The notes under the pieces were generated by a model, which did not search any database, had not been told where the DNA came from, and saw only the letters and a program-made list of their open reading frames with translations. This document shows positions 31,879 through 38,615 of a DNA stretch of 48,300 nt, in pieces (positions within the stretch are counted from its first letter, which is position 1; every line of letters starts with the position of its first letter). Position numbers and translations under genes: made by a program. Origin of the DNA: Centipeda periodontii DSM 2778 (GTDB taxonomy: Bacteria > Bacillota > Negativicutes > Selenomonadales > Selenomonadaceae); assembly GCF_000213975.1 (NCBI RefSeq), contig NZ_GL892076.1:1002555-1050854 (forward strand), read 5' to 3'.

Positions 31879-31920
31879 GGGGCTGTTGCACAAAGTTTTC
31901 TAGCTTCGTGCAACAACCCC
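31879..31920. terminator. Repeat-family hairpin between convergent genes
   Basis: GGGGCTGTTGCACAAAG pairs with CTTCGTGCAACAACCCC around an 8-nt loop, then TGATTTATTTT. It separates purL from the convergent kinase-like gene. Confidence 0.7.
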
Positions 31921-31924
31921 TGAT

Positions 31925-32785
31925 TTATTTTATCAATGACTCCTCGCTCAACTGCGCTCTGAGATTGTCCAGATACTCTGTGAGGCGCTCACGGCTGCCC
32001 TCGTGTGCGAGCTGCGCGATCACCGTCATGTGATGGCTGAGGTCGTGGCGCATACGGCGTGAGCTGCGCCAGAGCGCGAGCATCGTATGATAGCGTGCCT
32101 CCTCGGATTGGTGGATCATCTGTTCGTGAATCTGCTTCGCGTGAAGTGCGTTGCCCTCCTCCGTATAGTGCGTGAGGAGATTTGATACGCGCAGGTATTG
32201 GACGAGAGCGAGCGGGAGCAGCAGCCGCGCGGCGATGATCGTCGGCTGCACCGATGTGCCCGACGGGTCAGCGGTGACAGCGAGCGCCACGAGGATCACC
32301 TCATATCCGCAGAGATAGATCCAGAGCCGTCGATCGTCTTTGTGCAGCATCGGTGTGAGCAAATGGCGCATGGTGTGCAGTGCGGCGGGCAGGACGAGGA
32401 GAAACATCATGGGAACGAGAAGGCATTTCCACAGCCCCAGCGGCAGGCCTTCTCCGAAGAACTGCTCCGCCGCTGCTCCAAGCGTGCTCGCAAGCATCAG
32501 AAGAGGATAGACGAGCAGCGTGATCGAGAATACGCGCAGGGGGCTGTCACGTATCACTGCCATCATATAGATGATGGCAAGCGGTCGGCAGAGGAGTGCC
32601 GTCAGCGTCATACTCTGCACGGAGGACATCTGAATGAGCTGCGTCAGCGCAAGCAGGAGGACATAGCCGATGATGACGTGTGACCGTGCAAAGCGCAGCC
32701 GATCGCGAAAGATATAGAAAATCAAAAGATCGAAGGGCGGGGCGCATACGAGCGTGTGCAGCAGCCGAATCTCGAAGTCACTCAT
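31925..32785 (-). CDS. Membrane histidine-kinase-like protein with H-box but no ATPase domain
   Basis: A 286-residue protein (start at 32785; ATG 32806 lies inside the AGGAGG Shine-Dalgarno sequence). About seven hydrophobic segments fill residues 1-195, followed by a helical segment HYTEEGNALHAKQIHEQMIH and an AgrC/SpoOB-type dimerisation helix RRMRHDLSHHMTVIAQLAHE, whose phospho-acceptor His is about residue 247. The protein ends 39 residues after that His, so the GHKL ATPase domain is absent. It overlaps the upstream kinase gene by 8 bp. It may accept phosphate from that kinase's ATPase domain; this is inference. It could also be a degraded kinase or a decoy. Confidence 0.75.
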   Translation of the reverse strand: MSDFEIRLLHTLVCAPPFDLLIFYIFRDRLRFARSHVIIGYVLLLALTQLIQMSSVQSMTLTALLCRPLAIIYMMAVIRDSPLRVFSITLLVYPLLMLASTLGAAAEQFFGEGLPLGLWKCLLVPMMFLLVLPAALHTMRHLLTPMLHKDDRRLWIYLCGYEVILVALAVTADPSGTSVQPTIIAARLLLPLALVQYLRVSNLLTHYTEEGNALHAKQIHEQMIHQSEEARYHTMLALWRSSRRMRHDLSHHMTVIAQLAHEGSRERLTEYLDNLRAQLSEESLIK

Positions 32786-34157
32786 GATGCGTCTGCACCT
32801 CCTCATCAGATGTACGCATGATGGCTGCCGTCAGTACAATCGACACGGCAAAGAGATCGTCCTCCGCCGCAATCTCCATCGTCCCATTGTACCGCGCAAG
32901 ACTTGCGTGAATGCTCTCCATTCCCACACCCCGCTCGCTGTAGCCGCGCTTCGACGAGAGCAGATGATCCTCCGTATCGTAGCGCAGCTTTCCGTCAAAG
33001 CTGTTATCCACCGTCAGAAAGAGCGTGTCCGCCTGATGCACGAGCGCAAGCCGCAGAATGCGCGGCACATCACATGGAAGCTGCTCCAACGCCTCGGCAG
33101 CATTGCGGAGGAGATTGCCGAGGATCGCCGTCAGGTCGAGCGGATCGATCGGATTCTTCGTGCCGATGTCGATCCGGTACGCCATCTGCACCCCCAGACG
33201 CTCAAAGAACGGCTGCCAATACCCGACCAGAATATTGACCGTCTCATTGGCGCAGACGGGGGCATAACGCGTATGAATCGCGGTCGCGGCGTTTCCCATC
33301 AGGCGTTCGATGCCTGCATGATCGCCCTTTGCCAGCAGTTCCTGTGCCGTGTCAATCATATCCGCGAATTGTGTGCGAAAGGTGCGCGTGGTACGGTCGT
33401 TTTCCTCCATCCGCGCGGCATTTTGACGTGTGATCTCCGCCATCTCCGTCTCCCGTGCGAGTTCCTCGTGCAACGTGCGCTGCCGCAGCCGTTCGTTCAT
33501 GGCATAGAGCGCCAGTCCGACACAGAAGAATCCGCCGACTGCTCCGCTCAGACGAACAAAGAGAGCCGTATGCGTCCGCAGATCATTGAACGGTGAGAGC
33601 AGAATCGTCAGCGCGAGAATGAGCACGCACAGCCACGCAAGCGGTGACCATACGGCATCAAAGGAATCGTCAGCGAGCAGAGGCGCGGCGATTGTGCGCC
33701 CATAGTACAGGAGCAGCGGAGTAACAACAGGGAGACAGGCAATCGTGCAAAGTCCGGAGAGAAGGAAGGGAATATCAAAGATCGGATAGGTATCCTCTAT
33801 GGCGTAGATCACCGTCTGCATAGCGAACCAAAACAGCCCCGGGGGGATGAGGATGCAGATTTGCTTGGCAATCGGCACCCGCGTCATCGCAAGCAGATAG
33901 AAGAAGATAAAGAAGAGAAACGGAAAAGCGATGCGCCGTGAAAAGACCGTTACAGCCTCAATCTGGATGATGGCCTCTATCCCGATGAATATGAGCAATC
34001 CCGCAATGATTGGCAGCGGAGAAAAACGCAAATAGCGGCGAAAGATATAGAGACGGATCAGATTGGCGGGGAGAACGTGAATGACCGTATAGAATACGGT
34101 CACGAGCGGGATGGTAAGCGGATCCTGCAGACACACGATGGAAAGCGGCAGATTCAT
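32778..34157 (-). CDS. AgrC/GHKL-type membrane sensor kinase with a degenerate H-box
   Basis: A 459-residue protein: about seven membrane helices (1-225), a coiled segment (about 225-260), a dimerisation helix and a C-terminal GHKL ATPase. The ATPase looks intact: N-box AILGNLLRNAAEA with Asn352, and G-box SSKRGYSERGVGM (about 402-414). In the dimerisation helix, TTRTFRTQFADMIDTAQELL occupies the place of the family's RHD-x-x-N-H motif and has Thr262 where the phospho-His should be. So it probably cannot autophosphorylate at the usual site. RBS AGGAG precedes ATG 34157. It lies between the LytTR regulator and the ATPase-less kinase. Confidence 0.85.
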   Translation of the reverse strand: MNLPLSIVCLQDPLTIPLVTVFYTVIHVLPANLIRLYIFRRYLRFSPLPIIAGLLIFIGIEAIIQIEAVTVFSRRIAFPFLFFIFFYLLAMTRVPIAKQICILIPPGLFWFAMQTVIYAIEDTYPIFDIPFLLSGLCTIACLPVVTPLLLYYGRTIAAPLLADDSFDAVWSPLAWLCVLILALTILLSPFNDLRTHTALFVRLSGAVGGFFCVGLALYAMNERLRQRTLHEELARETEMAEITRQNAARMEENDRTTRTFRTQFADMIDTAQELLAKGDHAGIERLMGNAATAIHTRYAPVCANETVNILVGYWQPFFERLGVQMAYRIDIGTKNPIDPLDLTAILGNLLRNAAEALEQLPCDVPRILRLALVHQADTLFLTVDNSFDGKLRYDTEDHLLSSKRGYSERGVGMESIHASLARYNGTMEIAAEDDLFAVSIVLTAAIMRTSDEEVQTHHE

Positions 34158-34178: not shown

Positions 34179-34225
34179 TAGGGGCTGTTGGACGAAGTTG
34201 GAAAACTTCGTGCAGCAGCCCCTAT
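34179..34225. terminator. Repeat-family hairpin between regulator and kinase genes
   Basis: ATAGGGGCTG arm pairs with the CAGCCCCTAT arm; the full stem (about 17 bp with a few mismatches, ACGAAG/CTTCGT inside) encloses TTGGAAAA. It begins at the last base of the regulator stop codon, so it may attenuate read-through into the kinases. Confidence 0.65.
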
Positions 34226-34950
34226 CACGTAAATCCTGCGCGCATCTTCTTCAGCATATAGGCGCGGTAGTTTCGTTCGACCTCACTGTTGCGGCGCGTT
34301 GCGATAGGGAGACGCGTGCCGTCTGTGAGCAGAATACCGTCCGGCGTCAGTTGGTGGATGTCGTCCATATTGACCAGCAGACTGCGGTGGCAGGAGAGGA
34401 ACATCGGCAGATGTTCCAGCAGCTCGCGCACGCGTGCAAGCGTCATATAGGGCGTAAGCACCGTGCCGTCCGTCAGATGAAACGAGCAGCGACGCCCATC
34501 GGCATCGACGTAGCGAATATTTTCGATGGGGACACGCTGCTCTGTGTAGTCAATCGTGAGCGTGACGGTTGGACGATCCTTCTTAAAGAATGACGTGCGC
34601 GCCAGTGCCTCACGGATGCCTGCTTCCGTCATCGGCTTGATGAGATAGTGCGCCGCCGTCACGCCGAATGCCTCGACCGCGTGGTCACGGCTTGTCGTCA
34701 CGAAGATGATTGCGCAGTTTCTATTGAATGTACGCAAAATCTGTGCCATCCGAATGCCCGTGCATTCCTTCAAATAGATATCGAGAAAGACAATATCGGC
34801 ACGCGCAGAGGACATATGCGCAAGAAATTTCTTATCATCTGTAAACGCACGTATCATGGGGCGCGGCATATGCTCCCCACAGATCGTGTCAAGCATTGTG
34901 CAGAGCGCGTGCAGATCGTTCGGATTATCGTCCAGTACAGCGATTTTCAT
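34225..34950 (-). CDS. LytTR-family response regulator (AgrA/LytR type)
   Basis: A 241-residue regulator. The receiver domain (about 1-118) has the acidic pair Asp7/Asp8, phospho-acceptor Asp57 in IVFLDIYL, and Lys105 in HYLIKPM. The LytTR DNA-binding domain follows (about 128-235; IENIRYVDADGRRCSFHL, FLSCHRSLLVNMDDI). LytTR proteins bind pairs of 9-bp direct repeats. A suitable repeat lies at 35020-35048 in the divergent intergenic region. RBS AGGAGG precedes ATG 34950, and a promoter is at 34973-35001. It is the cognate regulator of the two kinases downstream, inferred from order and family. Confidence 0.93.
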   Translation of the reverse strand: MKIAVLDDNPNDLHALCTMLDTICGEHMPRPMIRAFTDDKKFLAHMSSARADIVFLDIYLKECTGIRMAQILRTFNRNCAIIFVTTSRDHAVEAFGVTAAHYLIKPMTEAGIREALARTSFFKKDRPTVTLTIDYTEQRVPIENIRYVDADGRRCSFHLTDGTVLTPYMTLARVRELLEHLPMFLSCHRSLLVNMDDIHQLTPDGILLTDGTRLPIATRRNSEVERNYRAYMLKKMRAGFT

Positions 34951-35090: not shown

Positions 35091-35148
35091 AATAGCATAA
35101 TCTGACTGCTCCTATCATCCTATTGTATCAGAAGAGTGGAGGCAAATG

Positions 35149-36099
35149 ATGCGCTGTGAGATTGCGTTTGGTGTGGACGCGAACTATGTGAAGTATGCGG
35201 GGATTGTTATGACCTCCGCTGTTTTGCAGAACGCGGGGGAGGCGATCGGATTCCACCTCGTCTGTGACGGCATTACAGAGGCGGACTGCGATCGATTAGA
35301 GGACTTTCGGCGCATATTTCCGAGCGCGGACATTCACATCTATGATGCGCGGGCGAGACTGGATGAGATTCCGTTTCCGAAGGGGATCCCGCGCGAGCGA
35401 ATCAACCGAAGCGTATTCACACGGATCCTTATGCCGGAGATGGTGCCGCAGGAACTGACGCGCATTCTCTACCTCGATGCCGATACGCTCTGCGTCGGGC
35501 AGCTCAGTGAAATGTATGCATATGATCTCGGCTCTGCTCCGGTTGCCGCCGCACGCGAGGGCGATGCCGCCCGCAAGGCACAGCGCATCGGCATGAGGGG
35601 AACGGACTACTTCAACGCGGGCGTCATGCTTATCGACCTCGCACGCTGGCGCTCCATGCGGCTGACCGCGCGCGTCCTCGAGGCGTGGCGCACGCATGGT
35701 GCATCATTTCCCCTCCTCGAACAGGATGCGCTCAACTGCGCTTTGGATGGGAACTTTGCCGTGTTCACGCAGCATCATGTGCGGCTGATGGATGCCTTTG
35801 CGCCGTGGGATGTGGATTTCTCCGCGCAGGATACGATTTGGCATTTTCTCAATGAGGGAAAACCGTGGATCAACTACGCCGACCCGCGCGTGCATGAGCG
35901 CTATTGGCGCGTGGTGAACGCCTCGCCGTGGAGTAATCTCACGCCGTCCGAGCCGTGGGAGACGCGCATCGCCTACCTCGCGGGCTGTCATGCCGAGGCG
36001 GCGGAGGACTATCGTGCGGCGGCGCACTACTTCCACGCAGCGGCGGAACGGCTGATGCAGTTTTATCTGGAACAGACGAGCATAAGTCCATCGGAATAG
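35149..36099 (+). CDS. Glycosyltransferase family 8 protein
   Basis: A 316-residue GT-A-fold retaining glycosyltransferase of the GT8 family (WaaJ/WaaI and related). The DxD metal/nucleotide-sugar motif is in YLDADTLCV (about residue 110); TDYFNAGVMLIDLARWR and NEGKPWINYADPRVHERYW are other family segments. ATG 35149 is preferred over adjacent ATG 35146 because GGAGG is 6 nt away. It likely transfers a hexose from UDP-sugar. Only 11 bp separate it from the autotransporter gene, which suggests co-transcription and possibly glycosylation of that protein; lipopolysaccharide modification is the alternative. Confidence 0.88.
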   Translation: MRCEIAFGVDANYVKYAGIVMTSAVLQNAGEAIGFHLVCDGITEADCDRLEDFRRIFPSADIHIYDARARLDEIPFPKGIPRERINRSVFTRILMPEMVPQELTRILYLDADTLCVGQLSEMYAYDLGSAPVAAAREGDAARKAQRIGMRGTDYFNAGVMLIDLARWRSMRLTARVLEAWRTHGASFPLLEQDALNCALDGNFAVFTQHHVRLMDAFAPWDVDFSAQDTIWHFLNEGKPWINYADPRVHERYWRVVNASPWSNLTPSEPWETRIAYLAGCHAEAAEDYRAAAHYFHAAAERLMQFYLEQTSISPSE

Positions 36100-36110
36100 G
36101 AGTGTTGAAC

Positions 36111-37496
36111 ATGAAGACGAATACAGACAGCAAACAGATGCGCCTGAGCGCACAGATCGCCCTTGCGCTTACACTTGGTACGGCATTTGTGCCGACGGCG
36201 GCACTCTCTGCGCCGATTACCTCGTCCCGGACCTATACGGCAGATGCGACGGTGTCGGAAGATATCGATATTTCGAGCGGCACAATTACCGTGGAGGGAG
36301 TCAATGATGATTCGACAGGACGGTATGAAAACCGCACGGTCGAACTCAAGGGAAGCAGCATCAAAATCCTGAATCCGACGGGCAATATCCTTGCAGCGCT
36401 CAGCCGCGGTGACGGCACAATGGATTTTTCGGGGGTTCTGAAGGTCAATCCCGATGGCGCGGGGAAGGTCGAGCTGCGCGGAGATATTCTCGTCACAAAA
36501 CGTGATAACAGCGATGCTGACACCTATGATAGAGGCGGCTATGTCAAACTCTATCTCAAGGGGGCGGACTCCTACTTTGCGGGCGGGATTGCGGAGGTAA
36601 AAGATCCGTTGAACAGTATCATTCCACTGCATAAACGCGGCGGTGTGCTGCTCGACCTCTCGGAGGGCGCGACATGGTACCCCAAGGAGGCTGTGGATTC
36701 GTACGCGCTCTTTAACCCGGACAATCCATCGGAGAGATTCGGTGTTTTGCCCGATTGGAGTGAAGATCCGAGCAAACCACGCGGCTTTCATCTGTCGGCA
36801 GACGGCGGCATCATCGACATCGCATATGCTGCGCCGAATGTGGCACGTGCAGCTGCTGCAGGTACGCGCACGCTGACATTCAGCAACACAGAGGCAGCGC
36901 TGAACGGCGCGACCTTCCGCATCTCCACCGACCTCGCGAATGACAAGGCGGACAAGATTGTTCTGAACGGCATTCTGAATCCGACGCCGACAACGAACAA
37001 TAAATATAAGCTGCAGGTCGGCTTCGATCCGAAGATGAACGATGCCGCGGATAAGACAAACTATGTAATTGCGCCCACGACGGCGGGCGGTGTTCCCGTA
37101 CTGGATTCTGACAATACGGGCGACACCGTGGAGGCATCGGAGTATACCGCAAAGAAGGCGGTTGCGGCGGGACTTTTGACGAAGGACTTCAAGGTCAAAC
37201 CGACCCTCGTCGAGGCGACGGAGAGCGGCAGAAAGGTTGTGCGTGTGACCAAGATTACGATTTCGGATACTGCTCCAACGCCACAACCACAACCGCAACC
37301 GCAGCCACAGCCACAGCCGCAGCCACAACCACAGCCACAGCCGCAGCCACAACCGCAGCCACAGCCACAGCCGCAACCACAGCCACAACCACAGCCGCAG
37401 CCACAGCCGCAACCGCAGCCACAGCCACAACCGCAGCCACAGCCGCAGCCGCAGCCACAACCACAACCACAGCCGCAGCCACAGCCGCAACCGTAG
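36111..37496 (+). CDS. Autotransporter passenger portion ending at an in-frame amber codon
   Basis: A 461-residue reading frame. A signal peptide (about residues 1-33, ending ALSA) is followed by a beta-rich passenger-like region of about 350 residues (GTITVEGVNDDS, GKVELRGDILVTKRD, GVLLDLSEGATWY, RTLTFSNTEAALNGATFRIS) and then a Pro-Gln repeat. The frame stops at TAG 37494-37496 in the 36th Pro-Gln unit, where every neighbour has CAG or CAA. The same frame stays open to 38615 and encodes the barrel, so this is the front part of an 834-codon autotransporter split by one nonsense codon. Unless the amber is read through or is an error, no anchored protein is made. Confidence 0.85.
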   Translation: MKTNTDSKQMRLSAQIALALTLGTAFVPTAALSAPITSSRTYTADATVSEDIDISSGTITVEGVNDDSTGRYENRTVELKGSSIKILNPTGNILAALSRGDGTMDFSGVLKVNPDGAGKVELRGDILVTKRDNSDADTYDRGGYVKLYLKGADSYFAGGIAEVKDPLNSIIPLHKRGGVLLDLSEGATWYPKEAVDSYALFNPDNPSERFGVLPDWSEDPSKPRGFHLSADGGIIDIAYAAPNVARAAAAGTRTLTFSNTEAALNGATFRISTDLANDKADKIVLNGILNPTPTTNNKYKLQVGFDPKMNDAADKTNYVIAPTTAGGVPVLDSDNTGDTVEASEYTAKKAVAAGLLTKDFKVKPTLVEATESGRKVVRVTKITISDTAPTPQPQPQPQPQPQPQPQPQPQPQPQPQPQPQPQPQPQPQPQPQPQPQPQPQPQPQPQPQPQPQPQPQPQPQP

Positions 37497-37694
37497 CCAC
37501 AGCCGCAGCCGCAACCACAGCCGCAGCCACAACCACAGCCGCAGCCGCAGCCACAACCACAGCCACAGCCACAGCCGCAGCCACAGCCGCAGCCGCAACC
37601 ACAGCCGCAGCCGCAACCGCAGCCGCAGCCACAGCCGCAGCCGCAGCCACAGCCGCAGCCACAGCCGCAGCCGCAGCCACAGCCACAGCCACAG
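37281..37694 (+). repeat. Pro-Gln dipeptide repeat (69 units) in the autotransporter linker
   Basis: This is 414 bp of a CCR-CAR hexamer array: 35 Pro-Gln pairs, one Pro-amber pair (TAG at 37494), then 33 more pairs. Codons alternate irregularly between CCA/CCG and CAG/CAA, so the array is imperfect at DNA level. It joins the passenger to the membrane barrel. Similar Pro-rich linkers act as extended spacers. Confidence 0.95.
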
Positions 37695-38615
37695 CCGCCG
37701 ACACCCGGCCCCGCACTGCGCACGGCTGACCTTCTCATGGATATGGCACTCGCCCAGCTCAGTGCATGGCGCGGCGAGAACAACGATCTGCATCGGCGTA
37801 TGGGCGCACTGCGTGCGGGTGGAGAGTCCGGCGCATGGGTGCGCGGCTACGGCGGCAGGAACGAGTTCGGCACCTATCCCACCGAGGGCCGTTACAGCGG
37901 TGTGCAGGTTGGCATTGACCGCGCCGTTCCGCTTGGCGGCGGCACACTCTTCACGGGCTTTGCCGCCTCAATGATGAACGGCAGTGCACGCAACAGCGAT
38001 CTCGACGGCAGCTATCGGGCACACTTCTTTGGCGTGTACGGCAGCTACATGGGCAAACGCGGCGATTATCTTGACGCGATCGTGAAATATGGGCGCATGA
38101 CGAATGATGCGACTGCTGTCTTTGACGGCACGGCATACACGGGCGGCTACGGTGTGAACGGCTGGAACATCTCCGTCGAATACGGACATCGCATCGCCAT
38201 TACCCCGCATTTCTACTGGACGCCGCAGGCGGAGCTGAATTATGGACACATCGGCGCGGCAGACTACACAATGCGCGCGGGAGATTTGTCGGGCGCACGT
38301 ATCTCGAACGGTGCCGTCACCACGCTCATCGGGCGCATCGGCACGCAGGTCGGCTATGAGGACGAGCGCGGTTCGGTCTATCTGAAACTCGGCTATCTGC
38401 ACGAGTTCAAGGCCGACCTCCACATGCGCGCACAGTACGGATCGACCTCTATTGACCGCAGTTACTCGGCGCAGGACAGCTATTTTGAGTACGGACTGGG
38501 CTTCACGCGGCGCGTCGGCAGAGCAGATCTCTATGGAGAGTTCAGCCGCACGGCGGGCGCGGATGTCATCAGCGAAAAATGGAAAGCGAATCTCGGCGTT
38601 CGCATCGGATTCTGA
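37497..38615 (+). CDS. Autotransporter linker and beta-barrel portion downstream of the amber codon
   Basis: In the same frame as the passenger, this codes for 33 Pro-Gln units, a PPTPGPALRTADLL joint and a barrel of about 290 residues from Met 37737. GAWVRGYGGRNEFG, GVQVGIDRAVPLGGGTLFTG and the final KANLGVRIGF with a terminal Phe are typical of the autotransporter beta-domain, which inserts into the outer membrane through the BAM complex. On its own it has no signal peptide and no ribosome binding site before Met 37737, so it should not be made as a separate exported protein. It ends at a perfect 12-bp terminator stem (38671-38708). Confidence 0.88.
   Translation, partial: PQPQPQPQPQPQPQPQPQPQPQPQPQPQPQPQPQPQPQPQPQPQPQPQPQPQPQPQPQPQPQPQPQPPTPGPALRTADLLMDMALAQLSAWRGENNDLHRRMGALRAGGESGAWVRGYGGRNEFGTYPTEGRYSGVQVGIDRAVPLGGGTLFTGFAASMMNGSARNSDLDGSYRAHFFGVYGSYMGKRGDYLDAIVKYGRMTNDATAVFDGTAYTGGYGVNGWNISVEYGHRIAITPHFYWTPQAELNYGHIGAADYTMRAGDLSGARISNGAVTTLIGRIGTQVGYEDERGSVYLKLGYLHEFKADLHMRAQYGSTSIDRSYSAQDSYFEYGLGFTRRVGRADLYGEFSRTAGADVISEKWKANLGVRIGF

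Follow-up and report, generated by a model that had tools for sequence, protein, structure and literature searches.

An AgrC-type sensor kinase apparently split across two neighbouring proteins in Centipeda periodontii and its relatives

Introduction

Can a membrane histidine kinase be divided between two neighbouring genes, with one protein holding the ATP-using part and the other the site that is phosphorylated? This question is raised by a locus of Centipeda periodontii DSM 2778 (Selenomonadaceae, Negativicutes) lying in a window, the whole 48,300-nucleotide stretch of DNA that was analysed (assembly GCF_000213975.1, contig NZ_GL892076.1, positions 1,002,555 to 1,050,854, forward strand). 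Two adjacent AgrC-type proteins are encoded here, named K1 and K2. A sequence-only reading had proposed that they are complementary halves of one sensor, forming a hetero-oligomer in which the ATPase of one phosphorylates the histidine of the other, with possible AND-gate behaviour, and had given decay of a duplicated kinase as the plain alternative. Below, genomes of the survey are denoted by G, their contigs by C, extracted loci by L, genera by g and families by f, each with a number.

Organisation of the locus

The first gene of the cluster (34225..34950, minus strand) encodes a LytTR response regulator with a receiver domain (PF00072, 52.9 bits) and a LytTR DNA-binding domain (PF04397, 44.8 bits), and is the presumed phosphate acceptor. 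It is followed by K1 (32778..34157, minus strand), an AgrC-type membrane kinase of 459 aa with an intact GHKL ATPase domain (HATPase_c_5, PF14501, 61.6 bits, cut-off 22). The phospho-acceptor His of its H-box is replaced by Thr262 (codon 33372..33374) and the following Asp by Gln263, while the N-box Asn352 (codon 33102..33104) and the G-box are kept. K2 (31925..32785, minus strand), of 286 aa, overlaps K1 by 8 bp, retains Arg-His-Asp with the presumed phospho-acceptor His247 (codon 32045..32047), and ends 39 residues after this His, following the predicted two-helix DHp hairpin. K2 has no hit to an ATPase family at E<=1; its only Pfam matches are SPOB_a (PF14689) at 19.2 bits, below the cut-off of 28.1 and covering profile positions 16-59 of 62, and a chance-level XisI hit. 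Neither K1 nor K2 has hits to Hpt or CheA domains at E<=1. The coordinates, lengths, 8-bp overlap, Thr262, Asn352, G-box and the His of K2 39 residues before the end, as described in the sequence-only reading for the two kinases, were confirmed. Neither protein alone is a complete member of the AgrC/HPK10-type receptor kinases, but the pair together has the parts.

By a crude hydropathy count, without a topology programme, K1 has seven and K2 six hydrophobic segments. AlphaFold2 prediction from three sequences was too poor for K1 (mean pLDDT 45.6) and was useful in K2 only for the hairpin, with predicted helices at residues 179-262 and 265-281 and block pLDDT values of 72-83 for residues 241-280, although the whole model is poor (mean 52.5).

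A terminator-like hairpin of 17 pairs lies at 31879..31920 (minus strand), just after the stop of K2. This is a pattern match only, and such hits are no more frequent here than in shuffled sequence (2 found, 2.8 expected). A similar hairpin (GGGG...CCCC followed by T-rich DNA) was seen by eye after the regulator gene at 34181-34222, but was not called by the scan. Beside the cluster, on the other strand, lies an autotransporter (35955-38615) whose PF03797 domain (114.5 bits) is in 37737-38615 and whose passenger part (35955-37496) sits in a separate reading frame. The change of frame falls in or next to a 417-bp Pro-Gln-coding tandem repeat (37280-37696), possibly reflecting phase variation or a sequencing slip. 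A GT8 glycosyltransferase (35146-36099) lies between it and the regulator.

Conservation in the window lineage

The same K1/K2 layout is present in eight further genomes of the family, among them Selenomonas sp. FOBRC6 and Selenomonas sp. oral taxon 892, and so it is not an assembly error of one genome. Close relatives of K2 (74-80% identity) occur in six further genomes of the genus and K1 in the same ones, giving 7 of 14 for each with the window included. With profiles, strong matches of both proteins are in the same 9 of 189 family genomes, the other two being both genomes of genus g20. In all nine the K1 His column is Thr, Met or Ala and the K2 His is kept; the genes overlap by 4 bp in most and by 8 bp in the window.

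Orthologues in which both proteins are complete kinases had been named beforehand as evidence that would speak against the split. The other seven genomes of the genus have neither protein, and so no such orthologue was seen. NG86 dN/dS values over eight genome pairs were 0.13-0.33 for K1 and 0.11-0.25 for K2, indicating purifying selection, although one sub-region value is high (0.81 for the DHp of K1, G008 against G013) on very few changes.

It could be supposed that K1 and K2 each pair with complete kinases elsewhere in the cell as dominant regulators, with no catalysis between them, and the window genome does have one other AgrC-type kinase with its His (G000:C1:2672124). However, in four genomes of the window lineage (G005, G008, G010, G012, G013 show one PF14501 hit each, K1 itself) the search found no other AgrC-type kinase to regulate, yet the pair is kept. 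This silencing explanation is considered remote.

Survey of complementary pairs

A profile search listed PF14501 matches in at least 141 of 189 family genomes. Listed loci were collected by hand, together with loci already examined, and all reading frames were scored with purpose-built HMMs for the DHp and ATPase parts, the latter trimmed of response regulator sequence before counting. Of 159 ATPase-bearing frames and 43 DHp-only frames, 50 adjacent pairs were formed. After one frameshifted gene was dropped and one locus split by de-duplication (L105/L091) was joined, 42 ATPase-bearing kinases have an ATPase-less DHp neighbour and 41 of these lack the His. Of 101 unpaired ones, one belongs to the joined locus, three cannot be assessed, 96 keep the His and one (G188) does not, thus 1 of 97. 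Fisher's test gives p 5.7e-33 but ignores relatedness: only two independent comparisons lie on starred branches of the ATPase tree (six on the best tree), so that a sign test cannot reach 0.05 and the association rests on few independent events. The DHp model was trained mostly on His-bearing kinases and missed the His-less, ATPase-less protein of G188, which was found by eye.

A class-wide search gave a DHp match in at least 186 of 380 genomes. Adding loci from this search gives 56 complementary pairs in 50 genomes, 12 genera and three families (f1 50, f2 5, these in genus g31, and f33 1); as the added loci were chosen for short frames, 56 is a count and not a rate. The residues in place of His are Gln (11), Glu (10), Arg (6), Lys (6), Asp (6), Thr (4), Asn (4), Met (3), Ala (3) and Ser (3). 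The f33 pair (G332) keeps a decayed ATPase stretch and its membrane part lies in another frame. In G164 the K1 frame is incomplete (266 aa), and in G054 and G109 K1 runs off the contig. G182 (L185) and G072:C39 (L269), first counted as split, are frameshifted single kinases and were dropped, while G197 (L261) was left out as its K1 is frameshifted. Among 398 genomes of the phylum many DHp frames under 330 aa were listed, but the one opened (L283, G448) is a complete short kinase with ATPase, and no split pairs are claimed outside the class.

The N-box Asn is kept in 40 of 40 split-pair K1 proteins examined, and Arg-His-Asp is invariant in 41 of 41 aligned K2 tails. Of 57 K2-type proteins, 55 stop 33-49 residues after the His, at the end of the DHp hairpin, against 175-419 residues (median 186) in 97 single kinases. 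No ATPase remnant was found downstream of K2 in 34 K1-first loci apart from one chance-level hit (E 0.87), and in 20 of 21 K2-first loci K2 overlaps the start of K1 by 4-14 bp.

A LytTR regulator gene is present, in some position, in the examined stretch of 46 of the 56 loci; of the ten without one several have short flanks. In G140 (L094, 6674-6910) the regulator gene of the otherwise conserved cluster is reduced to two pieces (residues 1-41 and 138-240 of the window protein) although K1 and K2 persist. In the g31 genomes the split pair and its regulator lie near a gene with a long signal peptide typical, by eye, of trimeric autotransporters (L256, 6996-8003; L258, 6269-8002), and together with the window and G116 (L093, 68-3166) this hints that the regulon includes surface adhesins.

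Independent origins, role swap and intermediates

On an ATPase-domain tree of 154 rows the split label needs seven changes, at least three of them forced by starred branches. On a tree of the membrane part plus DHp with the H-box left out, genera g10, g3, g21, g22, g12, g14, g19 and g29 form an upstream-copy clade and a downstream-copy clade (SH-aLRT 98 and 97). On a careful tree of 79 rows gene position needs a single change and role at least four, while holding all His-less rows together is rejected (p-AU 1.2e-5); this grouping was conceived by function, but after a quick tree had been seen. Short K2 proteins without a membrane domain were left out of the trees of membrane part plus DHp. One old tandem pair was thus resolved in opposite ways, the upstream copy having lost the His in some lineages and the downstream copy in a g10 group, and so the split arose more than once. 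The window lineage, G116, G126 and the g7/g31 group fall elsewhere, several of their branches being long, and their number of origins is not settled.

Intermediates survive. Five pairs have one His-less and one His-bearing copy, both with ATPase sequence (G118, G061, G082, G185, G120). The ATPase of the second copy has lost its N-box Asn in G118 (to Glu), G187 (to Ala) and G026:C140 (to Leu), while G016 and G186 have two His-bearing copies with ATPase. There are also exceptions to a tidy rule. In G026:C140 the K1-type copy still has a His, and in G120 the His-less copy has also lost its N-box Asn while the other copy looks complete. Both members lack the His in G079 (L164, 890-3480), with Glu and Leu in its place, and in G188 (L096, 4417-9342), where an ATPase-less and an ATPase-bearing protein lie in tandem beside an 881-aa hybrid kinase with HisKA, HATPase, receiver and Hpt domains; the G188 proteins are possibly sensors that feed the hybrid kinase.

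These His-less pairs, the frameshifts in G197, G182 and G072:C39 and the damaged regulator of G140 could be taken to suggest that K1 and K2 are remnants of a duplicated kinase on the way out. However, low dN/dS in both genes, perfect co-occurrence in the family, truncation at one domain boundary in 55 of 57 cases and opposite role assignments of the same ancestral copies are not expected from random decay, which is now much weakened and regarded as very unlikely.

In 13 pairs K2 has only one hydrophobic segment, ten of these frames being of just 100-118 aa (L179, L199, L184, L271, L150, L156, L173, L148, L128, L131), with that segment plus the DHp hairpin; the K2 of G116 has two. Such short proteins look like membrane-anchored phosphotransfer domains and, with the G188 pair, allow the alternative that K2 is an independent Spo0B-like phosphotransferase or phosphatase fed by other kinases, K1 being a regulatory pseudokinase or acting on something else. 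Against this, K1 keeps its ATPase motifs in 40 of 40 examined and K2 is found next to a His-less ATPase-bearing K1 in nearly every case, usually with overlapping genes, which argues that they work on each other. This alternative is considered unlikely.

Proposed mechanism

The explanation held with good confidence is that K1 and K2 are the two halves of one obligate heteromeric histidine kinase. In this view both sit in the membrane and pair through their DHp helices, K1 contributing the only ATP-binding catalytic domain and K2 the only acceptor His. Signal binding would let the catalytic domain of K1 phosphorylate His247 of K2, necessarily from one chain to the other, and K2 would pass the phosphate to the LytTR regulator encoded upstream; homodimers of either protein should be inert. 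Such pairs would have arisen repeatedly from tandem duplicates of ordinary AgrC-type kinases by complementary loss, one copy losing the His and the other first the function and then the whole of its ATPase domain, and in some lineages also most of its membrane sensor. The sequences themselves show the domain content, its conservation, the complementarity and the recurrence, whereas formation of a complex, trans-phosphorylation and transfer to this regulator are inferred from sequence alone, without interaction, phosphorylation or expression data.

The interpretation in the sequence-only reading is therefore partly supported: complementary loss that is conserved, selected and recurrent is what a split kinase predicts and what decay of one locus does not, but the hetero-oligomer and AND logic remain hypothetical. 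The AND-gate idea fits the window lineage, where both proteins keep six to seven hydrophobic segments by the crude count, but not the 13 pairs with a one-segment K2, in which there is one sensor at most, and so it is not the general point of the split. It remains possible, though doubtful, that there is a recurrently evolved class of obligate two-protein AgrC-type receptors in Negativicutes-like bacteria, dividing ATPase and acceptor His in either direction, in which the pair of the window lineage is a true two-input (AND) receptor.

Comparison with known systems

Split histidine kinases as such are known. In CheA3/CheA4 of Rhodobacter sphaeroides (PMC3591291) the ATP-binding and phospho-acceptor functions lie on two proteins, neither of which autophosphorylates alone while the mixture does, and the phosphate then goes to a response regulator. 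These, however, are soluble proteins of the CheA family with an HPt-type P1 acceptor domain and both join a chemoreceptor cluster, whereas here both are predicted membrane proteins of the AgrC type and the presumed acceptor is the DHp hairpin itself. Hik36/Hik43 of Synechocystis is also described as a split histidine kinase, with a two-hybrid interaction with Rre6 (PMC7656254), but it is a split CheA with HPt on one protein, its genes are far apart and it is not a membrane receptor of the AgrC type. Amin et al. (2013) noted HisKA proteins without HATPase (1556 of 42417 HisKA proteins in SMART) and predicted that other kinases may be split between HisKA and HATPase proteins, proposed for up to 1.7% of HisKA kinases (PMC3591291); this is a count of one half only and of the HisKA family, without partners, AgrC-type members or an evolutionary series. 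K1 and K2 fit the sense of a split histidine kinase used there in that the ATP-binding and phospho-acceptor parts lie on two proteins.

AgrC of Staphylococcus aureus, an HPK10-type receptor kinase (PMC6755735), is a multi-pass membrane receptor, as K1 and K2 appear to be, with a SPOB_a/DHp His followed by Asp, a GHKL ATPase and a LytTR regulator, and works as a dimer, but one protein carries both His and ATPase. His-dead and ATPase-dead AgrC have reportedly been paired in the laboratory (George Cisar et al., 2009), which is what these bacteria would do naturally. Spo0B of Bacillus has a DHp-type hairpin carrying the phospho-acceptor His without kinase activity of its own, but is soluble and takes phosphate from a response regulator, while K2 is predicted to be in the membrane beside a matching ATPase. 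The statement in the sequence-only reading that no system with exactly this split was known is fair for AgrC-type receptors, as literature searches covering open-licence papers listed no such pair by name. What differs from the known split kinases is thus the AgrC-type receptor, along with an evolutionary series not seen described.

These loci give a natural, repeated experiment on how a histidine kinase can be cut into catalytic and acceptor halves, with intermediate stages still alive and with the roles assigned both ways. They make testable whether AgrC-type receptors phosphorylate across the dimer, how heteromeric pairing is enforced and whether two receptors can be tied into one obligate sensor. 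They also carry a warning for annotation pipelines, as each half alone would be called a pseudokinase or a fragment.
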